Below are positions 228-16,657 of a DNA stretch of 64,000 nucleotides, in pieces. The notes under the pieces were generated by a model that was given only the letters and a program-made list of their open reading frames with translations, did no database searches and was not told where the DNA came from. Numbering within the stretch: position 1 is the first letter of the stretch; each line of letters starts with the position of its first letter. This DNA comes from Myxococcales bacterium 68-20. GTDB taxonomy: Bacteria > Myxococcota_A > Polyangia > Polyangiales > Polyangiaceae. The translations under genes and the position numbers were made by a program. The DNA is taken from the NCBI GenBank assembly GCA_001899635.1, contig MKVQ01000027.1, positions 1 through 64,000 of the forward strand, given 5' to 3'.

Positions 228-1460
228 CTACTCCCAGCCGACGTCCTTTCGGATCAACGCGCCGATCTCGTTCGCGATGCGCTGCTGCCACGCAGGTGTG
301 CCGTGGCCGTTGCAGGCGGTCACCTCGTCCCATGTCCACGGCTTCGCCATGAACGCGTGCATCTTGAAGTCACCGACCGCGGCGCGTTCGGCGACGATGC
401 TCTGAGAGATGTCCGCAACGGCCTCACGATTGCCGGCGCTGACGATGCCCATGTAGATGTGCGTGTTCGGACCGCGCGCTCGAAGTCGGTTGATGATGAA
501 GTCGCGATACGCCGCCCGGAAGTCCGAGCCGCCGCCGTCGCCCGATCCCTGCGTCATCACGATGACGTCCGGGACCCACGACGTGAGATCGAAGAGCGGC
601 GGGTTCGAGTTGGCGATCTGCGGGTTCGGATCCGCCCGGTCGTAGTAGTCGCGAAGCGGGTCGGTATCCGTCTCCCAGTCGTTGTGGATGAGGCCCTTGG
701 CGGAATAGACGATCCCGTGGACCTCGGCGTTGAAGGTCTCCCCGAGAATGGCGCCCCACGACTTGCGGAAGTTCTGCCACCTCCCGCTCCAGTCGTTCCC
801 CTCACAATCCGTGTCGGGCGCGGTGATGTTCTCGATGCCGAAGCCGCTCGCGAAGGAATCGCCCAACACCTCGATCTTCCGCAGCAGGCGCTCTGGTGAC
901 GGGAGCGACTTGCCGCCGTGGAAGTCGTAACCGAGGAACTGCGTGATCCCGTTCTGGGTCTCGCTCCGTTTGTAGATCTCGACCTGGTGAGGTCCAGGGG
1001 TAAGGTTCGAGGCAAGCTCGAAGTCGTGCGGCTGATCGTCGGCGATCATCGCGATCGACTTCCACGGGTCCTTGTCGATCCGCACCTCCCAGTAGCTCGG
1101 AGCGCCGTCCATCCAGGTCTCGGCGTGCTCCTTGAGCTTCACCGAGACCTTCGTGCCATCGAAGCGCGCGATGATGCGGGTACCGGGCCAGGAAGCCCTG
1201 GGGCCAGCGGGATCCGTCGTATCGAAGCGACCGACGAAGAGCGGCTGGTAGACCGTACCAGGCGATTCAGGCGTTGGCGTCGGCTTGGCCGTCTCGGAGC
1301 CGGGCGGAGCCGGCGGCCCATCCGTCCCATCGGGGGTTTCGCTCGGTCCCGACCGGTGACTCGAAGACGCACTCTTGTTCGAGCTCGAGCATGAGCTCGA
1401 TCCCACTGCGACGAGGAGGAAGATGGCCGGCCAGGCCAGGGAGCTGGAAGACGAACTCAT
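228..1460 (-). CDS. SGNH/GDSL-family esterase lipoprotein (CE2-like)
   Basis: 410 aa, probably an exported acyl or acetyl esterase acting on carbohydrate. The N-terminus has a hydrophobic segment ending in a Ser-rich stretch and a Cys (near residue 20), so it is a likely though non-ideal lipoprotein. A Pro/Ser/Thr linker follows. Residues about 65-175 look like the jelly-roll domain of carbohydrate esterase family 2, with the short motif 'VGRFDTTDPAGPRASWPG'. The SGNH hydrolase domain has the nucleophile block VLGDSFASG (Ser202) and a C-terminal catalytic His386 in CNGHGTP. CE2 enzymes use such a Ser-His arrangement. The frame stays open upstream to 1763, but the start at 1460 is the one that gives a signal sequence. 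Substrate is unknown. Confidence 0.82.
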   Translation of the reverse strand: MSSSSSSLAWPAIFLLVAVGSSSCSSSNKSASSSHRSGPSETPDGTDGPPAPPGSETAKPTPTPESPGTVYQPLFVGRFDTTDPAGPRASWPGTRIIARFDGTKVSVKLKEHAETWMDGAPSYWEVRIDKDPWKSIAMIADDQPHDFELASNLTPGPHQVEIYKRSETQNGITQFLGYDFHGGKSLPSPERLLRKIEVLGDSFASGFGIENITAPDTDCEGNDWSGRWQNFRKSWGAILGETFNAEVHGIVYSAKGLIHNDWETDTDPLRDYYDRADPNPQIANSNPPLFDLTSWVPDVIVMTQGSGDGGGSDFRAAYRDFIINRLRARGPNTHIYMGIVSAGNREAVADISQSIVAERAAVGDFKMHAFMAKPWTWDEVTACNGHGTPAWQQRIANEIGALIRKDVGWE

Positions 1461-1769
1461 GGAGGCGCGCTGATGCAACCGCAAAGCCGAACCGCAACGT
1501 GTGCCGCCGCCGATTCCTGACTCGGCCAAGCCCGCGTCGAGACACCTCTTTGCGCGCACGCGCGATCGAACGGACGAGTACGAGCGTCGTTCCACGGCGC
1601 GCCGCTCCTCTACTTGGTGCGGAAGGCGCCAGCTCACCGAGCACGGTGTGGCTCGCGCGATCCATCGACGCCGGCGAGGGAGGCACGCTGGCGTGCCCCT
1701 CCGCTTCGCGGAGCCGCTCGGCGATCTCGATGATCGCGTCGCTCTACACGACCGAAGACGCACCGATCG
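1461..1769. other. Intergenic stretch with no supported gene
   Basis: 309 bp between two minus-strand genes. Open frames here have no recognisable domain and overlap each other. It presumably holds the promoter of the esterase lipoprotein gene. I see no hairpin or repeat worth naming. Confidence 0.5.
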
Positions 1770-2150
1770 CTACTGATCGAGAGCTCTCTGTCGCCATACG
1801 GCGACGTCGGCGGCGAGCTTCTCGCGATCGCCAAGATACGTGACGAAGCGACCAAGATCGCGATCGAGATGGCATACGGCGATCGCCTTCGTGAGCTCGA
1901 AGTTCTCGTCCTCGCCGTTCGGAGCAGAGAGAAAGTGGTGCATGCAACGTCGGGTGTCGGGATGCAGCTTGTCCTGCAGGAGCTGGAGAACGGCGCACCG
2001 CTCATCCCACGTCCCCACGCGGTCGTAGAGCGCGACGAGCGGGGCGACGTGCTCTGGACGAACGCGCGGACGCCAGGACTCGATCGCCTCCCAATCCCGC
2101 GCATGCACGAGGTTCTCGAAGCTGCGAAGGTCGTTCTCGGGGTTGCTCAT
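1770..2150 (-). CDS. Small protein of unknown function
   Basis: 126 aa from the ATG at 2150; in-frame ATGs at 2159 and 2162 are alternatives. It is soluble, charged and helical in character, with many Arg, Asp and Leu residues, and has no signal peptide or membrane segment. The pattern 'WEAIESWRPRVRPEHVAPLVALYDR' broken into helical stretches is reminiscent of HEAT/TPR-like helical repeat proteins, but I do not recognise a family. Codon use looks normal for the window. The next gene upstream is divergent, so this is probably a single-gene unit. Confidence 0.5.
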   Translation of the reverse strand: MSNPENDLRSFENLVHARDWEAIESWRPRVRPEHVAPLVALYDRVGTWDERCAVLQLLQDKLHPDTRRCMHHFLSAPNGEDENFELTKAIAVCHLDRDLGRFVTYLGDREKLAADVAVWRQRALDQ

Positions 2151-4806: not shown

Positions 4807-5886
4807 ATGTGCGGCTCGGCAACACCACGTGACGCGAACGTCGCTCGGATCTGCGCGTTCCTTACCGTCACGGCGCTCGTCGGTGCGAGCGAAACTGCGC
4901 GGGCCGAAGACCGTCCCGACATCCCGGTGCGCGTCACCGAGGAGGTCCACGAGGGGTGCCCGCGGAGCCCGACGATGCTGGGGCGTGTACGCGCGCGCCT
5001 TGCACGTGTTCGTCCAGCAGCGGAAGGCGAGCCGGCGATCGACATCGACGTCCGTGTGGAGCGTCGCGACGGCGTGAGCCACGGTACGGTCGCGCTCGTC
5101 GGCGGAGGCGAGCGCGCGGAGCGCACGGCGTCGTCCGCGTCGTGCGAGCGCGTTCTCGCGGCCCTCGCCGTCATGGCCGCGATCGGACTCGACGAGCGGC
5201 ACGTGCCGGAGTCTCCCGCTCCCGCTCCGTCTCCCCCGCCCGCTCCCGACGAGAGCGCAACGGTGCCGGCGCCGCCGGCCGGCGAGCCTCCTCTGATCGC
5301 GCCGTCGCCGCGTGCCGGCGCCCGGCCGAAGACCGCGCCGGAGCACGCCGCCCCTCCGACTCCTCCACGCCCGACGCACTTCGGCGTCGCGATGGGAACG
5401 AGCCTCGAGGCGTCGGCGAATCGAGCCGCGGTCGTCACCCCCGCGGTCTTCGGGCAGATCGTGCTCCCTCTCCGCTTCGAGCCGTTTCTTCGTCTGGGGT
5501 TCGCGCGAAGCTTCCAGCAGAAGGCCGTCTCGGCGCGAGGGATCGCCGCGCTCGCGTGGACCGAAGCGACCATCGCCGGATGCGGCGATCTCGTTCGCCA
5601 CGCGACGCTGCGCGCCGGGCCCTGTGTGAACGCCGAGGCAGGTGCCCTCGAAGCCGTCGTCGTCGAGCCGTTGCCCGCGCGGGGGCGCTCGCGGCTCTGG
5701 CTCAGCGCCGGCGCGTCGGCGCGGGTCGCGTGGAGGCCGCTCCGAGCGCTCTCGTTCGAGATCATCGCGGGTGCGCGGGTGCCGCTCATCCGCAATGAGC
5801 TCTTCTTCGAGCCGCTGACGCTCGTGTATGAGGCGCCTTTCGTCGTCCCGTTCGTCGGAACGGCGGTGCTTGCTCACCTCCCCTGA
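4807..5886 (+). CDS. Exported family H protein, probable outer-membrane protein
   Basis: 359 aa. The N-terminus has a signal peptide with a TARA-type cleavage site. Residues about 40-130 form a globular domain with conserved Cys residues ('EGCPRSPTM', 'SSASCERVLAALAVM'). A Pro/Ala linker (about 140-190) follows, then a C-terminal region of alternating hydrophobic strands ('FGVAMGTSLEASANR', 'FLRLGFARSF') typical of a beta-barrel. It shares this layout with the 319-aa protein at 47523, so I treat them as one family ('H'). It sits 125 bp upstream of an ECF sigma gene; a family H remnant lies in the same place relative to the second sigma gene. Function is unknown. The divergent gap to the RCC1 gene (4512-4806) probably holds both promoters. 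Confidence 0.7.
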   Translation: MCGSATPRDANVARICAFLTVTALVGASETARAEDRPDIPVRVTEEVHEGCPRSPTMLGRVRARLARVRPAAEGEPAIDIDVRVERRDGVSHGTVALVGGGERAERTASSASCERVLAALAVMAAIGLDERHVPESPAPAPSPPPAPDESATVPAPPAGEPPLIAPSPRAGARPKTAPEHAAPPTPPRPTHFGVAMGTSLEASANRAAVVTPAVFGQIVLPLRFEPFLRLGFARSFQQKAVSARGIAALAWTEATIAGCGDLVRHATLRAGPCVNAEAGALEAVVVEPLPARGRSRLWLSAGASARVAWRPLRALSFEIIAGARVPLIRNELFFEPLTLVYEAPFVVPFVGTAVLAHLP

Positions 5887-6011
5887 GCGGCTGGAGCAGA
5901 CGGCTGAGCTCGCGCGGAGCTCTACCGAGGTCGAATCGGCTCGCGCGCCGGTGCTCTTTTCTTAAAGAATTTGGCTCCTCGTCGACATCGCGCGTCTGGA
6001 AGTAGTTCGTC

Positions 6012-6587
6012 GTGTTCGCCGCGCATGCAGCAAAGCTAACGACCGATGCGGTCGCCCGAGACCCGGCGCTCGACGCCCGCCTTCGGCAGCTCGCGATCGA
6101 TCACTACGACTTCGTGTGGCGCTCGCTCCGCCGTCTGGGCGTGACGCCGCCCGAGACCGACGATGCTGCTCAGCGCGTGTTCCTGACGCTCGCGCAGAAG
6201 CTCCCGAGCGTAGAGGGCGGCAAGGAGCGGAGCTTCGTCTTCGGCATCGTGATGCGCGTTGCGGCGAATGTGCGCCGCGATCGGGCGACTGCGCGGCTGC
6301 GCGAGGTACCCGAGAGCGACGCAACCTCGTCGCTCTCGCACGATGCGACCGCAGAGACGGCACTCGCTCATGCGGAGGAGCGTGCGACGCTCGACGAGAT
6401 CCTCGCGAGCATCCCGGAGGAGCGTCGCATCGCGTTCGTGCTCTTCGAGATCGAGGAGCTCACGTTGGTGGAGATCGCAGAGATGCTCGGCATTCCGCAG
6501 GGCACGGTCACCTCACGCGTCAGGCGGGCTCGCGAAGAGTTCAGAGCCGCCGTCACCCGGCATCGCGCACGGAACAAAGGAGTCTGA
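6012..6587 (+). CDS. ECF sigma factor heading cassette A
   Basis: 191 aa, GTG start. Region 2 spans about residues 30-95 ('DFVWRSLRRLGV', 'TDDAAQRVFLTLAQKL', then an 'RSFVFGIVMRVAAN' segment for -10 recognition). Region 4 spans about 130-185 ('IPEERRIAFVLFEIEELTLVEIAEMLGIPQGTVTSRVRRAREEF') as a helix-turn-helix for the -35 element. No region 3 and no C-terminal extension are present, as expected for an ECF sigma. It is the first gene of a same-strand block. The next gene begins 1 nt after its stop and encodes a membrane protein, the usual position of an anti-sigma factor. It probably drives the downstream surface-protein genes, and perhaps itself. It is paralogous to the sigma gene at 50910. 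Confidence 0.9.
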   Translation: MFAAHAAKLTTDAVARDPALDARLRQLAIDHYDFVWRSLRRLGVTPPETDDAAQRVFLTLAQKLPSVEGGKERSFVFGIVMRVAANVRRDRATARLREVPESDATSSLSHDATAETALAHAEERATLDEILASIPEERRIAFVLFEIEELTLVEIAEMLGIPQGTVTSRVRRAREEFRAAVTRHRARNKGV

Positions 6588-6588
6588 C

Positions 6589-7377
6589 GTGGAGACCCCC
6601 GATCTCGAACCGCTCCTACACGGCGAGGCCACCGAAGACGAGCGGAGCCTTCTCCAAACGGCAAAGCGCGATGCAGCCCGGCCCGGCGCGCGCGACGAGA
6701 TGCTCGCGGCGCTCGGCGTCCCCGTCGTGGCCGCCCCCGAGCGCTTCGCCGTTCGCTTCGGCAGCTCGGGCGGATCGCTTCTACACGGCGTCTTGCTCGC
6801 CGTCTTCATCGGGACAGTCACCGGCGCCGCCGTGATGTTCGGGAGCTCCTCCGAAAGTGCATCGGAGCCGTCCCTCCCGAGCGACGTGCGGGAGAGCTCG
6901 CTCCGTGCGCCGTCACCCGCCGAAGGCAGCGGCCAAGCCGACGACCTCGCGAGCACGCCCGTCGTCACGCCGGACTCGTTGCCGAGCGCGCCTGCCGTCG
7001 CGTCCACGGCGCCGGCAAAGGCGGGCGCCGTCACCGGATCGCTGCCATCGACCGATACACTTGCCCGCGAGATCTCGCGCGTCGAAGCGGCTCGCACCGC
7101 CCTGGAACGCAACGAAGCGGCTCGCGCGATGGCGCTCCTGGATGCGTACGAGCGCGAGTTCTCGCGCGGCGCATTCGCGGTCGAGGTCTCCGTGCTGCGT
7201 ATCGAGGCGCTGGCTCAGGCCGGAAAGACAGACGAAGCGCGCCGACTCGGTGCGCGATTTCTCGCCGAGCATCGTCAGGGCGCGTTCGCGCGCCGTGTCG
7301 GCGCCACGCTCGATGCGCTGCCCGGTGCCGCGCCGCCATCGAGCGCGGAGCGAGCGCTGCGTTCCCCCGATGAGTGA
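6589..7377 (+). CDS. Membrane-anchored sigma-partner protein with TPR-like C-terminus
   Basis: 262 aa from a GTG preceded by AAAGGAG, 1 nt after the sigma stop. About 60 cytoplasmic residues come first, then one membrane helix ('LLHGVLLAVFIGTVTGAAVMF' region, about 65-85) and a long Ser/Pro/Ala-rich periplasmic linker. A helical C-terminus (about 165-250) follows, with a TPR-like pattern ('ALERNEAARAMALLDAYEREF', 'ALAQAGKTDEARRLGARFL') resembling BamD/YfiO-type repeats. The position suggests an anti-sigma or sensor. However, I find no HxxxCxxC zinc motif in the N-terminal part, so it would be a non-canonical one. The equivalent gene in cassette B (51489) has the same architecture with little sequence identity. 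Confidence 0.7.
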   Translation: METPDLEPLLHGEATEDERSLLQTAKRDAARPGARDEMLAALGVPVVAAPERFAVRFGSSGGSLLHGVLLAVFIGTVTGAAVMFGSSSESASEPSLPSDVRESSLRAPSPAEGSGQADDLASTPVVTPDSLPSAPAVASTAPAKAGAVTGSLPSTDTLAREISRVEAARTALERNEAARAMALLDAYEREFSRGAFAVEVSVLRIEALAQAGKTDEARRLGARFLAEHRQGAFARRVGATLDALPGAAPPSSAERALRSPDE

Positions 7378-7446
7378 GAGCGGGCGGCTCCGGCCGTAGA
7401 CGCCGCCATCGCATACCCGTCCGAAGGATTCGAAGGAGAACCATTC

Positions 7447-8643
7447 GTGAAACGTCGCATCATTGGACTCGCGTCCGCGCTCGGCCTCGCCAGCATCGCC
7501 GTGCAGTCGTGCGCCGACGCGACCTCGCTCGGACGAGGCTTCGACGACGACGCAGGACTCACCCCCATACCGTCGCTCACGAGTCCCGACGCCGGCGATG
7601 CATCGAGCTTCGAGGACGGAGGACCACTGCTGGCGTGCATCGCCACCGACTGCCCGGCCCCATGGGCGACGTGCTCCTCGGAAGGCAAGCCCGCGTACAA
7701 GTGCGAGTCCGATCTCCAGCACGACTCGAACCACTGCGGCGCATGCGGGAACAAGTGCCTCACGTACGAGCCGATCCACATGACCTCGCGCTGTGTGGAC
7801 GGCGCGTGCCAGCCCGAGTGCTACACCAAGCCGGAGCGCTCTGGTGACGAGGACTGGCGCAACTGCGACGCCCTCCTCGACAACGGCTGCGAGGTCGACG
7901 TCCTGGTCGATCCGAACCATTGCGGCGCGTGCGGGAACGAGTGCCCGGCCGGGACGCCTTGCATCCTGGGGCAGTGCGGTTGCCCCTCGGGCTTCATTCT
8001 GTGCGCCGGGGTTTGCGTCGACCCGATGACGAGCGACTTGCACTGCGGCGCTTGCGACAACGTCTGCACCCCGCCGTCCGATGCATGCAGCACCCCGCAG
8101 CCCAACACCGGCTACGGCTGCAAGGCGGGCCAGTGCATGAAGAAGTGCATCAACAACGCGGCGGACTGCAACGGCGACATGGAGCAGTCGACCTGTGACG
8201 GAGATGGCTGCGAGGTCGTTGGGCTCGACACGAACGAGAACTGCGGCGGTTGCGGCATCAGGTGCACCAAGCCGGGCGAGGAGTGCATCGACGAAGGCAA
8301 CGGCTACGTGTGCGCGGTGCCTTGCGCGAAGGTCGGCCAGACCATGTGCCGAGGCGAGTGCGTCGACCTTCTCAACGACGTGTCCTCTTGCGGCGCTTGC
8401 GGCGACAAGTGCGATGCGCCGGGCCCGAACCAGGTCAGCTCGTGCAGCAAGGGTGTTTGCGTTTACGCGTGTGCGCCCGGCTTCGGGGACTGCAACGGCA
8501 ATGCTGCAGACGGCTGCGAGACGAACCTCCGCCAGCATCCAGGCAATTGCGGAGCGTGCGGGAATGCATGTGACTTGGCCGCGGGCCAGCCATGCATCGA
8601 AGGCGCGTGTCTCATGAAGGAGTGTGAGGAGGTGCCGAATTGA
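7447..8643 (+). CDS. Cys-rich repeat lipoprotein (HCGACGN repeats)
   Basis: 398 aa, GTG start with AAGGAG 8 nt upstream. A signal peptide ends at a Cys in AVQSC, then comes an Asp/Ser/Pro linker. The body holds six repeats of the type 'NHCGACGNxC', each followed by Cys/Gly-rich loops ('CVDGACQPEC', 'DNGCEVDV'). In many myxobacterial genomes such proteins carry misleading automatic names, but the repeat is an extracellular disulfide-rich module of unknown role. The C-terminal segment 'AGQPCIEG' is shared with the protein at 52337, which also has six repeats. The stop overlaps the next start by 4 nt (TTGA), so translation is probably coupled. Confidence 0.8.
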   Translation: MKRRIIGLASALGLASIAVQSCADATSLGRGFDDDAGLTPIPSLTSPDAGDASSFEDGGPLLACIATDCPAPWATCSSEGKPAYKCESDLQHDSNHCGACGNKCLTYEPIHMTSRCVDGACQPECYTKPERSGDEDWRNCDALLDNGCEVDVLVDPNHCGACGNECPAGTPCILGQCGCPSGFILCAGVCVDPMTSDLHCGACDNVCTPPSDACSTPQPNTGYGCKAGQCMKKCINNAADCNGDMEQSTCDGDGCEVVGLDTNENCGGCGIRCTKPGEECIDEGNGYVCAVPCAKVGQTMCRGECVDLLNDVSSCGACGDKCDAPGPNQVSSCSKGVCVYACAPGFGDCNGNAADGCETNLRQHPGNCGACGNACDLAAGQPCIEGACLMKECEEVPN

Positions 8644-9869: not shown

Positions 9870-11080
9870 AACGCTCGCTCGCCCGCACGAGCGCGCTCGC
9901 GCTCGCGTTCGCATCGCTCGGAGGCCTCTGCGCGTCGGCGTGCGCAGACTCCGAGGTAGCGCCGCCTATGTCGTCGCATGTCGACGCGGGGGACGCAGCC
10001 TCTCCGAACAACACCAGCGACGCCGCCGAATCGATGCCCGAGGCGTCGATCGATGCAGGACCGAGGGTGTGCTCGTACCACGGGTTCTGCCCGACGACTC
10101 TTCCCGCCGCGCAGACGCTCGTCAGCGTCTGGGGTGACGGGACGGGCGTCGCCTGGGCGGTGAGCACGGAGGGTAACGTCCTTCGGTGGGACGGCTCTCA
10201 GTGGATGGTCCACGCCTCCAAGCTCGGACCGCTCGCCGCCGTGTGGGGCAGCGGACCGACCGACGTGTGGATCGGCGGAGAGAACGGGCTTCACCACGGG
10301 ACCGGCTCGAGCTCGGCTGCGCTCACGTTCACGACGGTGCGTTTGGCCGACACGCCGACTCGAATCGCGTCGATCTGGGGTCTGTCTTCGAGCGACATCT
10401 GGGCGGTCGGAACGATGGACGACCCCGATACGGGAAGGCTCGTCGGCGGAGCGTTCCACTTCACCGCCGGAAGCTGGGCGCTCGTTCCCGTCTCTTCGGA
10501 GATCGGCGCCTACTCGCACGTGTGGGGAAGCGCGGGGAGCGGCGTGTGGCTCGCAGGGCAACGTCCGATGCCTGATGCGCCGTGGCTCATGGAGCTCGTC
10601 GTCCTCCGAAAGAGCGGTGGCGATGACTTCACCGACATCGCCTTGCCAGCCGATCCGCACATCCCGCCGCCGATCGGAGCACCGGGATCTCTTCGTGGTG
10701 GGGCCGCCGTGTCCGACACCTCGATCTGGCTCCACGGCGCAAGCGCCGGCTCATGGCCGATCACCTGGCGAGGGACGAGCACGGACAACGGCAAGACGTT
10801 CACGTTCACCGCGGAGCGCGACGGCACCCCCAATGCACCGCAGATCAACGCTCTCTTCGGTACCTCGGCGAACGACGTCTGGACGGTGGGTGACTACGGC
10901 CAGGTGCGCCACTGGAACGGCACGAAGTGGGCGGGCACGGCGATCACGACCACGGACCTTCCCGTGATCAACCCCTTCTTCGCCGTCTGGGCTCGCCCGT
11001 CGTCGGAGGTGTGGCTCGTCGGCAAGGACATCGCGCTCCGGTACGACCCGGCGCACGAGAAGGATGGAGGCGTGCAATGA
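9866..11080 (+). CDS. WGSG-type propeller lipoprotein, second of pair A
   Basis: 404 aa, GTG start in a GTGA overlap. A hydrophobic signal ends near CASAC. A short Asp/Ala linker is followed by 'GPRVCSYHGFC', which introduces the propeller. Six to seven WG repeats are visible ('AAVWGSGPTDVWIGGENG', 'IASIWGLSSSDIWAVG', 'ALFGTSANDVWTVGDYG'), with a less regular region around residues 215-300. It is more diverged than the first propeller of the pair but matches the protein at 54807 in order of blades and in the 'GPRxCS' introduction. It probably acts in the same surface complex as its neighbours. The stop overlaps the RCC1 gene by 4 nt (ATGA). Confidence 0.78.
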   Translation: MKRSLARTSALALAFASLGGLCASACADSEVAPPMSSHVDAGDAASPNNTSDAAESMPEASIDAGPRVCSYHGFCPTTLPAAQTLVSVWGDGTGVAWAVSTEGNVLRWDGSQWMVHASKLGPLAAVWGSGPTDVWIGGENGLHHGTGSSSAALTFTTVRLADTPTRIASIWGLSSSDIWAVGTMDDPDTGRLVGGAFHFTAGSWALVPVSSEIGAYSHVWGSAGSGVWLAGQRPMPDAPWLMELVVLRKSGGDDFTDIALPADPHIPPPIGAPGSLRGGAAVSDTSIWLHGASAGSWPITWRGTSTDNGKTFTFTAERDGTPNAPQINALFGTSANDVWTVGDYGQVRHWNGTKWAGTAITTTDLPVINPFFAVWARPSSEVWLVGKDIALRYDPAHEKDGGVQ

Positions 11081-12594
11081 GCTTGTTTGGATCGATGCCC
11101 GCTGACCATGAACGACGGCTCGCATCGAATGGGCGGTCACGCGTTCAGTCCGTGCTCGTGCTCGCGAGCGTGCTCGGGACGACGCTGAGCATCCTGTCGG
11201 CCGCATGCTCGGACTACGACGGCACGCTGGCGAACGATGCTGCCGACGCGACGGCGGATGCTCCGAACGCGCCGCTCGACGACGCATCCCACGCTCCCGA
11301 CAGCGGCGCCCGCCCCGACCCCCGGGGGCCTTACGACCCCGCCGACGTTCCGGTCGTCTGCGACGGCTCACCGTGCGCCACGCAAATCGTCGCGGGCGGC
11401 GATCACTTCTGCGTACGCATCAGCGACGGCACGGTCCGTTGCTGGGGAGACGATGCGTTCGGCGTCCTCGGGACGATCCCCGAGCCGGACTGGGGCGATG
11501 GCGACGGCGACAGTGATGCCGGATCCACCGTGCACACCATTGCCGATCTCTCCGGTGTCACTCACTTGAGCGCAGCGGGCGCCACCACGTGCGCCCTCCT
11601 CGACGACGGGAGCGTCAAGTGCTGGGGCGACAACCGACGTGCGCAGCTCGGGCTCGAGCTCGACTGGCCGCGCGCCGACGAGGAGCCGCACCCTACGCCC
11701 TCGCGCGTTCCACTCGAGTCTGCCGCGACAAAGGTCGACGTCGGACACGGAGTCGTCTGCGCGCACCTCGCGTCAGGCAAGCTCTGGTGCTGGGGCAGAG
11801 ACCACCAGGGGCAGCTCGTACGCGCCGGCGACGACATGGAGCTCTATCCGGATCTAGTGCGTAGCCCCGGCCTCGCCGCGATCGATCCGCTCTCGTTCGT
11901 GCGCATCGCCGCCAGCACTCACACCGCGCTCGGTCTCGCCGCCGACGGAACGGTGTGGAGCTGGGGCGCGCTGGCGGGTGAGCTCGGGACCGTCTCCGCT
12001 CGGATCGGCTCGATCACGCCGAGCCGGACCCCGAAGCGCCTGGACTCTCTGTCGAAGGTGACGAGCGTCGTCGCGAGCGCCTGGATCGAACGGCTGGCGG
12101 ACACGACGGTGTCCAGGCCGTCGCCGGGCGGGGACCCGCCCAAGCTGCCACCGCAAGCTCACGCATGTGCGCTCGCGGACGGCGAGGTCCATTGTTGGGG
12201 CCGCAGCTACAATGGTGCACTCTGCACGGGTTTGCGCGACGTCGAACAAGAGCCTGCACACGCGCCGCTTCCGATCTCGGCGAAGACCTGGCCCCAGCAG
12301 CTCGCGGTCGCCGACGAGATCACGTGCGCGCGCATGACCGACGGAAGCGTGTACTGCTGTGGAAGCGACACGCGCGGGAGGCTCGGGACGGGCACCGTGG
12401 GCCTCCTCTCGCCGTCCTTCACGAAGGCCGAAGCGTTCAGGCGGCACGCGGTACAGGTCGCTACGACCGACCGCGCCGTATGTGCCCTCGTGGTGGACGG
12501 TACCGTCGAGTGCTGGGGGAGCAACGAGAAGGGTGAGCTCGGGCAGTCGCCTGACGACGCGGATCATCCTTCTCCCGTGAGGGTCGCCCTCTGA
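11077..12594 (+). CDS. RCC1-repeat propeller lipoprotein of cassette A
   Basis: 505 aa; the ATG at 11077 lies in an ATGA overlap. The signal sequence runs to a LSAAC lipobox (Cys44), preceded by an unusually long charged N-terminus. After an Asp/Ala/Pro linker there are seven RCC1-like blades ('IVAGGDHFCVRISDGTVRCWG' type). Blade 4 lacks the Cys pair and blade 6 has CCG instead of CWG. The RCC1 protein at 56110 shows the same two deviations, which supports direct paralogy. An extra loop of about 60 residues sits between blades 4 and 5. It is the last gene of the overlapping run; a 122-nt gap follows before the IgGFc-binding gene. Confidence 0.83.
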   Translation: MSLFGSMPADHERRLASNGRSRVQSVLVLASVLGTTLSILSAACSDYDGTLANDAADATADAPNAPLDDASHAPDSGARPDPRGPYDPADVPVVCDGSPCATQIVAGGDHFCVRISDGTVRCWGDDAFGVLGTIPEPDWGDGDGDSDAGSTVHTIADLSGVTHLSAAGATTCALLDDGSVKCWGDNRRAQLGLELDWPRADEEPHPTPSRVPLESAATKVDVGHGVVCAHLASGKLWCWGRDHQGQLVRAGDDMELYPDLVRSPGLAAIDPLSFVRIAASTHTALGLAADGTVWSWGALAGELGTVSARIGSITPSRTPKRLDSLSKVTSVVASAWIERLADTTVSRPSPGGDPPKLPPQAHACALADGEVHCWGRSYNGALCTGLRDVEQEPAHAPLPISAKTWPQQLAVADEITCARMTDGSVYCCGSDTRGRLGTGTVGLLSPSFTKAEAFRRHAVQVATTDRAVCALVVDGTVECWGSNEKGELGQSPDDADHPSPVRVAL

Positions 12595-12716: not shown

Positions 12717-14543
12717 ATGTCCCGCCTACTGGCTTCGGTCTTCGCGCTCATCGTCGTAGGAGCGTCTGCCGCCTCCGGATGCAGCTCCGACCGCGACGGC
12801 TTCGACGACAAGACGCCGCCGCCTTTCGATCCTCCCGACGGTGGTGATGTCCCGGACGCTCCGCAGTGCGGTTTCCGCTGTTCGCGCGATCTCAAGAAGG
12901 TGCTCCAGGAATGCGATGGTGACGAAGGCAAGGTCCTGACGGAGTGCCCGGAGGGAACGGGCTGCGGGGTCAACACCTGCGTCGATGCGTGCACGAGCGC
13001 TGCACTCTCGAAGGGCTCGATCGGCTGCTCGTTCTGGACCCTCCCGCCCGACGACTCCCGCTACGGAGCGGGGTCGTGCTTTGCTGCAATGGTCGCGAAC
13101 ACGTGGGACGTGCCGGTCACGATCAAGGCGGGATTCGGCGCCGAGCCGCTCGACATCTCGAAGTCGGTCTACACGGTCTCGCGGCCCGACCCGAACGCGG
13201 ACCCCGTCTACACCCGAGTCGACGGTCCACTCGCCCCCGGACAGGTGGCCATCATCTTCCTCGCACAGTCCGAAGATTGGTTGGCCCCCGGCGCGGTGCT
13301 CTGCCCGAAGGGGACCGTCGCTGCTCTGACCACGGATCCCATTCGCCGCGGCACGACGAAGACGAAGGCGTTCCATCTCGAGACCGACGTCCCCATCGCG
13401 GCGTACTCGATGTTCCCCTACGGCGGAGCGTCGAGCAAAATCCCGACCGCGACTCTGCTCTTGCCGGTGGCATCGTGGGACGAGCAGTACATCGCCGTTT
13501 CGACGGCGAAGTTCGGTAGCGCCGCCCCCTCGGGGTTCGACCCCGCGGAGTACGATCGAAGGACGCTTCAGATCGTCGCAAACGAAGACGACACGAAGGT
13601 CGCCATGCGCCCGACCGTCGACATCGTACGAGGAGATGGCGTCGAGCCGGGGGCAGCCGGCGAGGTCGTCCAGTGGACGCTCTCGAAGGGGCAAGCGCTC
13701 CAGGTCACGCAGCTCCACTCGACCTCCGGCAGTCCCATCGTGGCGAACAAGCCTGTGGCGGTGTTCGGCGGCTCGCCCTGCACGTTCCTGCCGCTCGGCA
13801 GGGAGTATTGCGACCTCACCCAGCAGCAGATCGCGCCCTTTGCCCAGTGGGGCACCTCGTACGCACTGGTGCCATACCAATCGCGCATCGAGGCCCTCGC
13901 TGGCGCGGCTCGGGAGACGGTGCTGTGGAGCTTCGTCGGCGCGGTCGACGGCACCATCCTGACGTACGATCCCGCGAAGCCTGCGGGCGCGCCCACCACG
14001 CTCGCCGCCGGAGAGGTCGTGACCTTCCAGACGGACCAGCTCGTGACCGTAAGGAGCCAGGACTCGAAGCACCCGTTCCAGGCGTCGGTCTACATGAGCG
14101 GTTCGATGAACGGCGGCGGCTCGCCGACGGGTGGCAGGACGCTCGGCGATCCGGACTTCGTGACGATGGTTCCGACGGACCAGTTCCTCGATCGCTACGT
14201 GTTCTTCGCCGACTACACCTTTCCCGAGACCTCGCTGACGCTCGTGCGCCACAAGACCCCGACGGGCTTCAAGCCGGTGACGCTCGAGTGTGCCGGGGAG
14301 ATCACCGGGTGGGAGCCGCTCGGAACGACCGGCGAGCTCGAGTTCACATGGGTGCGCTTGACGTCGGGCAGCCGACCTCAGACGTTCACGGGCGGGAGCT
14401 GCGGCTACGGCCGTCACGAAGCCTCGAGCGAGGGCCCGTTCTCCGTCACCGTCTGGGGGATCGGCCGGGACGCCAGCTACGGCTACGCCGGCGGCATGGG
14501 CAGCCGCCCGATCAACGACGCACCGCCGCCTAGGGTGCAGTGA
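12717..14543 (+). CDS. IgGFc-binding domain lipoprotein of cassette A
   Basis: 608 aa. The signal peptide ends in AASGC. Residues about 45-110 form a Cys-rich module ('CGFRCSRDLKKV', 'GCGVNTCVDAC') that also leads the paralogue at 57501. Most of the rest matches the IgGFc-binding protein N-terminal domain family in bacteria: 'GSCFAAMVANTWDVPV', 'AYSMFPYGG', 'ASWDEQYIAV', 'VAVFGGSPC' and 'DRYVFFADYTFPET'. The vertebrate relatives are mucus and IgG-associated proteins; in bacteria the domain is thought to be adhesive, which is not proven. It is separated from the overlapping run by 122 nt, so it may also have its own promoter. Confidence 0.85.
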   Translation: MSRLLASVFALIVVGASAASGCSSDRDGFDDKTPPPFDPPDGGDVPDAPQCGFRCSRDLKKVLQECDGDEGKVLTECPEGTGCGVNTCVDACTSAALSKGSIGCSFWTLPPDDSRYGAGSCFAAMVANTWDVPVTIKAGFGAEPLDISKSVYTVSRPDPNADPVYTRVDGPLAPGQVAIIFLAQSEDWLAPGAVLCPKGTVAALTTDPIRRGTTKTKAFHLETDVPIAAYSMFPYGGASSKIPTATLLLPVASWDEQYIAVSTAKFGSAAPSGFDPAEYDRRTLQIVANEDDTKVAMRPTVDIVRGDGVEPGAAGEVVQWTLSKGQALQVTQLHSTSGSPIVANKPVAVFGGSPCTFLPLGREYCDLTQQQIAPFAQWGTSYALVPYQSRIEALAGAARETVLWSFVGAVDGTILTYDPAKPAGAPTTLAAGEVVTFQTDQLVTVRSQDSKHPFQASVYMSGSMNGGGSPTGGRTLGDPDFVTMVPTDQFLDRYVFFADYTFPETSLTLVRHKTPTGFKPVTLECAGEITGWEPLGTTGELEFTWVRLTSGSRPQTFTGGSCGYGRHEASSEGPFSVTVWGIGRDASYGYAGGMGSRPINDAPPPRVQ

Positions 14544-14716
14544 CGCGCGCCCCCGGCGACGAGGCTCACGGGGACAGGCCAAGTGTCGAAGGCGTGAAGG
14601 CGATCGCGGCGCGTGCCGATTGAGAGTCTCGACAGCCTCGCCCTCGCCATCGGCTCGGAGCACCCTTTGCGCTAGATCGCACGAGCCGCCATTGCGGAGC
14701 TATCCTCCGTCGGGGG

Positions 14717-15808
14717 ATGAAGCTCCGACTGGATCGAGACCTCGCTCGTGCACTCGATGAAGCCCTCGCCGCGGCACGTCGCGCACGACACGCCGCGGTG
14801 ACGCGGGAGCACGTCCTCGAGGCGCTGCTCGGCTTCAGGGTCCTCTGGCGCGACGTTCTCCCGCTTCGCGCCTCGCAACGCGAGCTGGCGTCACTCATCG
14901 AGATCCGCCTCGCCGAGCTCCCTACGACCGCACCGTACCGCGACGCGATCGCCTCGGTGCCTTTCTCCGAAGAGCTTCAAGCGGATCTGAATGCGGCTCA
15001 GCGGGCCTTCTTCTTCCCGAGGAAAATCGGTGTCGAAGAGCTGCTCGACGTCCTCCTCGATGCCCCGGAGATCGCTCGACTCGTCGCCGACGCCAGGCTC
15101 GATCTCGACGTGCTCGACAACAGCATCTCCGAGGCAAGACGGATCGCATTCGAGCATCGGCATGCGGCCCTCTCCCCGGAGCACCTCTTCCGAGTCTTCG
15201 CAGACGAGCGCTGGTTTGCTCGCGCACTCCTCGATGCCGGCGGCGAGGCCGATGCGTTCCGACTGCGCCTCGATGAGAGGCTGGCCGCCGTTGGAGCGGT
15301 CCCGCAGCGGGACCACGAGATCCTCCCGACGAGGGCGCTCGGCGGCTTGATCCAGCGTGCCGGGGCCCACGGCCGAATGCTCGGGCGACCGACGACCAGC
15401 GAGATCTTCGTTGCCATCGCCCTCCTCGACGCGGAGCCATCACACATCATCGAGGACACGGGAGTCGACCGGATGACGTTCCTCTCGAGCATCGTGCACG
15501 GGTTCGTGCCATCCCTCGATACGAACGGGGGCGCTGGCCTCGCCGAGGTCGTCTTCCACAACGACGACTTCACGACGCAGGAGCTCGTGATCGCCACTCT
15601 CGAGGAGCAGTTCGGTCTCGCGGACGTCTTGGCAGTCGACGTGATGCTGCGGATCCACCAGAACGGTGAAGCGGTCGTCGGCGTCTATCACGAGGCCGAC
15701 GCTCGCGAGCGGGCACGGGACGCGACCGAGCGGGCACGGAGCGCAGCATTCCCTCTCCGGATCGAGGTTCGCCCCATCCGAGGCGGCCACGACGACATCG
15801 AATCGTGA
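14717..15808 (+). CDS. Clp_N double repeat fused to a ClpS domain
   Basis: 363 aa. Residues about 1-140 and 140-260 resemble two Clp N-terminal repeat regions ('ALAAARRARHAAVTREHVLEALL', 'EARRIAFEHRHAALSPEHLFRVF'). Residues about 275-358 form a ClpS adaptor domain. It keeps Asn282, Asp283, Asp284 and His314 with exactly the 32-residue spacing of E. coli ClpS Asn34 and His66, which hold the N-terminal amine of N-degron substrates. The gate residue equivalent to Met40 is Gln288. There is no AAA+ ATPase domain. ClpS normally docks on the ClpA N-domain, so here adaptor and docking domain are covalently joined. Role in N-end-rule proteolysis is inferred only. Single gene, convergent with the LytTR operon. 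Confidence 0.8.
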   Translation: MKLRLDRDLARALDEALAAARRARHAAVTREHVLEALLGFRVLWRDVLPLRASQRELASLIEIRLAELPTTAPYRDAIASVPFSEELQADLNAAQRAFFFPRKIGVEELLDVLLDAPEIARLVADARLDLDVLDNSISEARRIAFEHRHAALSPEHLFRVFADERWFARALLDAGGEADAFRLRLDERLAAVGAVPQRDHEILPTRALGGLIQRAGAHGRMLGRPTTSEIFVAIALLDAEPSHIIEDTGVDRMTFLSSIVHGFVPSLDTNGGAGLAEVVFHNDDFTTQELVIATLEEQFGLADVLAVDVMLRIHQNGEAVVGVYHEADARERARDATERARSAAFPLRIEVRPIRGGHDDIES

Positions 15809-15853
15809 GCGTCGACGCCTATGGCGCGTTCGCTCGTTGTGTCGATCGCGTGC

Positions 15854-16657
15854 TCAGCCGTCCTGACGGAGACCGATGGCGTTCGTCAGGAGGCGCTCGC
15901 GCACGTTCGCCGCGCGATCCCGGGCAACGTGGATCCGGAGAGGCGGGTCGTTTGATCCGACGAGGAGCACGGCCTCGCCGTCGACGCGTTCCATCGAGCG
16001 TACGCTGGTGGTCGAGACCAGCCAGTTGCGATGAACGCGCAGGAAGCTCGGCGCGAGCATCGCCTCGAGCGAGTTGAGCGAGAGGTCGACGTCGAGCCGG
16101 CCCTGCGCCGTATGCACGTAGCAAAGGCGCCCCTCCGCCTCGAACGCGAACGCATCCGAGACGGCCAAGAACACGATCGCGCGCCCGTTCCGGGCGGCGA
16201 TGCGCGTGTCTCCGGCGCTCCGCGCCCGCGCCTGCGCTGGGGCATGGGTGCTCGCAACGATTCGCTCGAGACTCGCACGCACGCGACGCTCCGTGAACGG
16301 CTTCAAGAGATAGTCGACGACGCCGAGCTCGAACGCGCGCATGGCGTGCTCGCTCGAGGCTGTCGTGAGGACGATACGTGGAGGCGTGACGTTCCGCCCT
16401 GCCACCGGCGACCCCTGGTGCAGGGACTCGATCCACGTCAAGCCGGCACGTGCCGGGTGGCGCTCTCCTGCGAGATGGATGTCGACGAACGCCAGGTCGA
16501 CGGAGGTGGGCGAGGCGGCGAGCGCCTCGCTGGCGAGCGCCGGGCTGGAGACCGCCGCCACGACATGCGCCAGCTTCGACCGCTCGACGAGCTGCACGAG
16601 GTAGTTGCGCGCCGGCCACTCGTCCTCCAGCACCAGTACACCGAGCGATTCAGGCAT
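15854..16657 (-). CDS. LytTR-family response regulator
   Basis: 267 aa. The receiver domain (about 5-135) has the acidic pair in VLEDE, the phosphoacceptor Asp59 in AFVDIHL, a Thr in VLTTAS and the Lys in YLLKPF. The C-terminal LytTR DNA-binding domain (about 165-260) shows 'IVFLAVSDAFAFEAEGRLCYVHT' in pieces and 'SFLRVHRNWLVS', which is diagnostic. It is the last gene of a five-gene operon; its start overlaps the kinase stop by 8 nt. It most likely activates or represses the efflux operon itself, though no binding site could be assigned. The family binds imperfect direct repeats upstream of promoters. Confidence 0.92.
   Translation of the reverse strand: MPESLGVLVLEDEWPARNYLVQLVERSKLAHVVAAVSSPALASEALAASPTSVDLAFVDIHLAGERHPARAGLTWIESLHQGSPVAGRNVTPPRIVLTTASSEHAMRAFELGVVDYLLKPFTERRVRASLERIVASTHAPAQARARSAGDTRIAARNGRAIVFLAVSDAFAFEAEGRLCYVHTAQGRLDVDLSLNSLEAMLAPSFLRVHRNWLVSTTSVRSMERVDGEAVLLVGSNDPPLRIHVARDRAANVRERLLTNAIGLRQDG

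Follow-up and report, generated by a model that had tools for sequence, protein, structure and literature searches.

Myxococcales bacterium 68-20 encodes a protein in which two Clp N-domains are followed by a ClpS domain in a single polypeptide that lacks an ATPase, and whose relatives across the class have lost the ClpS strip used for docking on ClpA while keeping, in part, the pocket that reads N-degrons. ClpS is known for delivering N-degron proteins to ClpA or ClpC, the N-degrons of ClpAP adaptors being N-terminal Leu, Phe, Tyr or Trp. The fusion gene lies at 14717..15808 on the forward strand of the window, the 64,000-nucleotide stretch of contig MKVQ01000027.1 analyzed here, and encodes 363 residues (about 40 kDa). 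Its frame is unbroken from an ATG at 14717 to a stop codon that ends at 15808 (363 codons), and its GC content at the three codon positions (0.76/0.44/0.80) is as expected of a genuine gene. It is preceded on its own strand by genes for an RCC1-repeat protein (10927-12594) and an IgGFc_binding-domain protein (12717-14543; E 3.9e-100), the latter separated from the fusion gene by 173 bp; a LytTR response regulator and a histidine kinase are encoded downstream on the opposite strand. A scan of 14400-16000 for the sigma-70 consensus, which says little for this organism, returned zero sites.

The ClpS core spans residues 276-353 (15542..15775, forward strand), as delimited by Pfam (277-349, E 2.7e-18, above the curated cut-off) and by structural modeling. 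In a PDB sequence search, ClpS chains aligned to residues 275-353 and E. coli ClpA N-domain chains to residues 134-262. NCBIfam placed ClpS models at 275-353 and a ClpA model at 133-263, all under their equivalog cut-offs. The full-length model is poor overall (pLDDT 60.5, pTM 0.39); its ClpS part matches Caulobacter ClpS (3g3p) with a TM score by target of 0.95 and an rmsd of 0.7, bearing out the ClpS assignment for which an earlier note on this DNA had proposed structure prediction. The second Clp N-domain (N2, residues 133-263, 15113..15505, forward strand) was assigned from the NCBIfam ClpA match and from a ClpA N-domain profile made from 69 ClpA-type frames plus E. coli ClpA, which detected residues 136-263 at E 3.2e-10 (E-values refer to the set of 39 fusion sequences with filters off). 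The first N-domain (N1, residues 1-130, 14717..15106, forward strand) is degenerate and was assigned from profile and model. The same profile recognized it weakly, at residues 8-41 (E 5e-4) with a further segment at 104-138 (E 0.008), and in the relative from genome G162 both N-domains scored separately (1.1e-5 and 1.3e-5). Pfam Clp_N matched two stretches at E 4.8e-6, above the curated cut-off, the best at 140-189.

AlphaFold2 folded residues 1-132 as a Clp N-domain (pLDDT 69.6 and pTM 0.68 in the top-scoring model of five, 46-52 in the others), from an input of six rows that included ClpA N-domains and the protein's own N2 and possibly steered the model. Foldseek matched this model to the N-domains of Hsp104, ClpB, ClpC1 and ClpA, with nine matches at E <=0.001. 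TM scores by query were 0.71 for Hsp104, 0.72 for ClpA (1r6o_B) and 0.71 for ClpB, and ran from 0.45 to 0.72 among the 50 matches listed. N2 is joined to the ClpS core by a linker of 12 residues (264-275, 15506..15541, forward strand), and the model has no secondary structure at 262-274. Collectively, the profile scores, the model of residues 1-132 and its Foldseek matches indicate the order N-domain, N-domain, ClpS. The earlier note had proposed Clp_N and ClpS in one ATPase-free polypeptide, and this part stands: profile searches found Clp_N within residues 1-260 and ClpS within 275-358, a view shared by the PDB search; inspection of the sequence revealed no Walker A motif; and Pfam found no AAA+ catalytic module, the sole match being to a lid below the cut-off (E 0.13). 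Its count of two Clp_N repeats in residues 1-260 needs correction, as this region actually comprises two N-domains of two repeats each.

The window's genome also encodes the ordinary system. A separate ClpS, whose presence the earlier note had left to a search, was found at G000:C13:182456-182689, directly before a ClpA frame; the fusion therefore does not replace ordinary ClpS. Further Clp-type ATPases are encoded on contigs C20, C44 and C36, and three adjacent ones on C17. The C17 genes are adjoining long frames on the reverse strand (locus L217, 3156-12463), each with AAA_2 and ClpB_D2-small, and Pfam Clp_N was unmatched on that contig. On contig C46 (locus L218, about 1091-1803, reverse strand), Clp_N-like sequence runs across several short frames and looks like the remnant of a frame-broken N-domain gene. 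Stand-alone ClpS paralogues that read NDDYTTKWF instead of NDDYTTMEF were seen at loci L011, L014, L031 and L032, in genomes that also have ordinary ClpS, and appear ClpS2-like by reading. A defence-system identity for the fusion was dropped after PADLOC returned 0 families at E <=0.01 for the fusion protein and two relatives. PHROGs matches of the fusion protein were confined to ClpS and ClpA-like protease families, plus one weak unknown, and tblastn with it for copies on plasmids and phages gave nothing at 1e-5, a weak test since ordinary ClpS was unmatched too.

The fusion recurs in other genomes, as the earlier note had suggested checking. A profile of 17 fusions, applied with an E limit of 1e-25 and up to eight candidates scored per genome, matched the whole N-domain-ClpS length (query start <=11, end >=230) at no fewer than 40 places in at least 36 of 317 genomes of the class, which is a lower bound. 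Among the matches listed for 377 genomes of the phylum (to about E 3e-24), nine were full-length and all nine fell within the class. A search of 398 Pseudomonadota genomes gave 0 at E <=1e-26, a limit tuned to strong members and used on a set with no known positive, so that the empty result shows nothing. One relative resides in record JAAFHV010000075.1, a Myxococcales MAG. The set analyzed comprised 39 uninterrupted frames, the relative in G530 being left out for a stop inside the match. All 39 have the same domain order, N-domain then ClpS. A single N-domain is present in 35, and two occur in four proteins of one family, namely the window protein and those of G025 (contig C520), G073 and G162 (contig C341). 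Pfam scored ClpS over the cut-off in seven of seven relatives and Clp_N in six, with G019 just below. Relatives are 20-33% identical to the window protein.

In slightly more than half of the fusions (21 of 39), the N-terminus includes a membrane helix, defined as a 19-residue Kyte-Doolittle mean >=1.2 with <=1 charge ahead of the N-domain; the proteins at L135 and L144 pass the hydrophobicity part of this rule and fail the charge part. Each of the 21 helices is followed by two to nine Arg/Lys within the next 15 residues. By the positive-inside rule, Arg/Lys after a helix put the following domains in the cytosol, and the domains of the anchored relatives are accordingly predicted to face that side. 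A tree computed by a quick method from 77 columns of 112 ClpS domains, with many long branches, set the 69 ordinary ClpS as a single group against the fusions (SH-aLRT 97). Recent duplication of the genome's own clpS is disfavored, as the ordinary group contains no fusions. A single clade of fusions is allowed by the data (p-AU 0.835), yet not demonstrated.

Gene neighborhoods offered little. Among the 39 loci (G530 has no scored fusion frame), no convincing neighbor common to distant relatives was found; the sole cluster common to ten loci consists of other-strand frames overlapping the fusion itself, and the other clusters listed cover three loci each, which are close relatives or, for two of the sets, scattered; kinase-like frames make up one of these two. 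In three genomes that share the window's genus, G073, G161 and G166 (loci L024, L079 and L081), 74-187 bp separate the end of the fusion frame from a downstream pilM, which pilN follows. An operon with pilM was considered and rejected: the fusion precedes pilM within roughly 1.5 kb at only 3 of 12 pilM loci and is missing from the pilM locus of the window's genome, and the arrangement was taken as incidental. At L141 in G528 (558-2133), two membrane-anchored Clp_N-ClpS genes stand in tandem, and their stop-to-stop frames overlap by 62 bases.

The N-degron pocket is complete in the window protein. Alignment with E. coli ClpS placed Asn282-Asp283 (15560..15565, forward strand) on amine-binding N34 and D35, and His314 (15656..15658, forward strand) on H66, in agreement with the exact spacing claimed in the earlier note. 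Val291, Met310 and Leu347 are also retained as pocket residues. Across the family, Asp35 and Val43 are each present in 39 of 39 fusions, His66 in 30, and Asn34 in 26, the remaining 13 having Asp at that position. An exact N34-D35-H66 triad occurs in 22 of 39 fusions, or in 30 if Asp is allowed at 34. Within the four tandem-N proteins, it is exact in the window protein and G073 only; Asp replaces Asn at 34 in both G025 and G162, and G162 also lacks the His. Because the triad is kept in only part of the fusions, the claim of pocket retention is limited to a subset of the family. From these residues, N-degron binding by the fusion protein is most likely retained.

Gln288 (15578..15580, forward strand) occupies the position of the E. 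coli gate residue Met40, as the earlier note had stated. The altered N-degron preference drawn from this substitution does not follow. The genome's ordinary ClpS, beside clpA, reads NDDYTTQEF and has the same Gln, which eliminates an altered gate as a hallmark of the fusion. Gln is also the gate residue in the stand-alone ClpS of G073, G096 and G162, making Gln288 a feature of the lineage. The 69 distinct ordinary ClpS have Met at the gate in 47 cases, Arg in 14, Gln in 4 and Lys in 4, and Arg serves as gatekeeper in Arabidopsis ClpS1, according to a review (PMC7966870).

The conspicuous change is in the docking face. Glu82 and Lys84 of ClpS form salt bridges with ClpA Arg86 and Glu23, respectively, and Glu79 hydrogen-bonds ClpA Glu28 and Thr81, as given in PMC12493166. 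The corresponding strip of the window protein (15695..15712, forward strand) has A327, R330, E331 and R332 for E. coli E79, E82, T83 and K84; none of the docking residues E79, E82 and K84 is matched, with R332 preserving charge only. Every distinct ordinary ClpS has an unaltered AE[TS]K strip (A-E82-T/S83-K84; 69 of 69), and not one fusion does (0 of 39). When the 20 positions that are >=97% invariant in ordinary ClpS were ranked by retention, 83, 82 and 84 were the least kept (4, 8 and 8 of 39), followed by 62 (25 of 39), and the 17 positions outside the strip were kept in 64-100% of fusions. By chance, both positions named for salt bridges in PMC12493166 (82 and 84) would rank among the three least kept of 20 with a probability of 3/190, to be read with the ranking being post hoc (strip loss was seen before the contacts were looked up), the sequences being related and the fusions diverging faster overall. 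Loss of the docking strip is a strong pattern in these sequences and not a clean test. Four divergent stand-alone ClpS paralogues of the NDDYTTKWF type retain the strip; this partial control indicates that being a paralogue does not alone explain the loss. A base persists at 84 in 22 of 39 fusions, including the window protein with Arg.

Changes extend to the ClpA side. Of 55 distinct ClpA rows, among them E. coli ClpA, 54 combine an acid at 23 with a base at 86. Of the fusion N-domain segments, acid at 23 was found in 9 of 42, base at 86 in 2 of the 22 that reach this column, and both in 1. In the window protein, position 23 is Ala26 in N1 and Ala150 in N2, and the Arg86 equivalent in N2 is Gly210; Glu28 has equivalents in Glu31 (N1) and Glu155 (N2), and Thr81 in Thr205 (N2). 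By this alignment, the residues that form the salt bridges differ in the ClpS core as well as in the N-domains, and loss of the ClpS-ClpA contact is incomplete at residue level, as a base at 84 (Arg) and the E28/T81 equivalents remain. Pairing of 23 with 84 in 37 fusions was canonical-like in 5, same-charge in 9 and swapped in 0, and no opposite-charge pair at 86/82 was found in the 19 fusions scored. These pairings thus give no hint of charge exchange having restored the canonical contact in cis.

ClpS delivery requires a disordered N-terminal extension that is gripped and pulled by ClpA pore loops, and blocking it stops delivery, as described in PMC9663308. No such free extension precedes the ClpS core of the fusion, its place being taken by two folded domains and the 12-residue linker. 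Tandem proline is absent from linker residues 264-275, and the first helix of the window protein begins at residue 2-5 in the models. In membrane-anchored relatives, the membrane helix lies ahead of the N-domain, where free ClpS has its tail.

A kept triad, salt-bridge changes on both sides, a missing tail and an ordinary clpS-clpA pair in the same genome fit a ClpS lineage uncoupled from ClpAP. We tentatively favor the reading that the fusions read N-degrons outside canonical ClpAP delivery and act as holders or competitors. They would represent a fast-evolving ClpS lineage of the myxobacterial class, with ClpS attached to Clp N-domains of which it is otherwise a free partner. The fusion would most likely still bind proteins through a destabilizing N-terminal residue and would not hand them over to ClpAP by the known route, because the docking strip, the free N-terminal extension and an ATPase are absent. 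N-degron proteins might then be kept from ClpS-ClpAP or brought to a partner of the fusion's N-domains, and membrane-anchored relatives would hold them at the inner membrane. We infer sequestration in that holding or competing is the simplest use of the remaining parts; evolution of some other contact, with ClpA or in cis with N2, is conceivable. More speculative is the extension to the whole class, by which N-degron readers freed from ClpAP, on ATPase-free Clp N-domains and either soluble or tethered to the inner membrane, might cause a protein with a destabilizing N-terminus to be held or localized instead of degraded.

The main rival to a holder or competitor is an adaptor that serves an unfoldase different from ClpA; its ClpS core would bind N-degrons, and its N-domains or another face would dock on another Clp-type ATPase. 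The additional ATPases on C20, C44, C36 and C17 provide candidate partners, and a changed docking face in a persisting protein fits a changed partner, but no gene neighbor ties these ATPases to the fusion and the fusion lacks the pore-feeding N-terminal extension of ClpS delivery; we rate such an adaptor less likely than a holder or competitor. We regard as unlikely a sensor or scaffold for some other ligand, in which pocket and N-domains have been re-used by analogy with mycobacterial ClpC2, an ATPase-free Clp N-domain protein with a binding role (PMC10030653). Tandem N-domains would offer extra binding sites, and 17 of 39 fusions do not have the exact triad; against this, the triad is complete in the window protein and Asp35 and Val43 are universal among the fusions.

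The earlier note had also raised a self-regulated ClpAP adaptor, with ClpS docked canonically on its own N-domain in cis and then released to ClpA. Both partners are indeed physically joined, and Arg at 84 and the E28/T81 equivalents of N2 are retained. The replacement of E23 and R86 in N2 and of E82 in the ClpS core, the lack of swapped pairs at 23/84, and a full-length model that places the domains without confidence nevertheless disfavor self-regulation through this contact, which we consider the least probable of the explanations. Hardly more probable is a decaying paralogue with little function. Fast divergence, a patchy distribution among the genomes of the class and the internal stop of the G530 relative would fit decay, but 39 open frames with constant domain order, retention of the canonical-invariant positions outside the strip and the codon-position GC of a normal gene all speak against it.

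No description of a Clp_N-ClpS protein was found in the literature searched, which included few subscription papers. The nearest accounts in print are of ClpN repeats and, separately, L12/ClpS insertions in vWA conflict proteins (PMC7159879), and of a ClpS gene in an actinobacterial operon (PMC1779556). In Myxococcus xanthus, mutations in clpA and clpS confer resistance to the toxin SitA6, according to PMC8546572, so that ClpS function can be of consequence when such bacteria compete; this is a lead on biology that comes from clpA and clpS of M. xanthus and not from the fusion. A lineage that partly keeps the reading pocket, without the delivery contacts, on its own docking-type domain and often anchored in the membrane would make non-degradative N-terminal signals testable in bacteria. 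The fusions would also serve as natural separation-of-function sequences for the ClpS pocket versus the docking face.

Compared with the ClpS adaptor (PF02617; E. coli ClpS), the fusion shares the fold, the amine-binding Asn-Asp...His and the hydrophobic pocket positions, and differs in having no free N-terminal extension, a changed docking strip and a location behind two Clp N-domains. With ClpA, ClpB and ClpC it has in common the N-domain (PF02861), present twice by profile and model, whereas it is without AAA+ modules and the ClpS-bridging residues E23 and R86 are replaced in N2, E23 also in N1. Class-wide Clp_N-ClpS proteins (e.g. G019 L025, G534 L151 and G179 L083) resemble the window protein in domain order, strip loss and lack of an ATPase, and most depart from it in their single N-domain and many in their membrane helix. 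Mycobacterial ClpC2 is not known to carry a ClpS domain. Like the fusion, it is an ATPase-free protein with a Clp N-domain, for which a sequestering role has been demonstrated (PMC10030653); the window fusion differs in its tandem N-domains. A sponge of the ClpC2 type would in addition repress itself by binding its own promoter and be induced by a ligand. A ClpS-AAA fusion of Bradyrhizobium (loci L069-L072) likewise has ClpS joined in one polypeptide and the docking strip lost (four rows), but ClpS is there joined to an AAA ATPase and Clp_N is absent among the 25 of 27 L069 Pfam families listed. These frames lie at about 5780-7700, and that of L069 matched Pfam ClpS at E 1.5e-13 and AAA ATPase at E 1.2e-19. 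The L069 genome (G590) contains a second ClpS-AAA copy elsewhere that is 61% identical over query residues 90-539.
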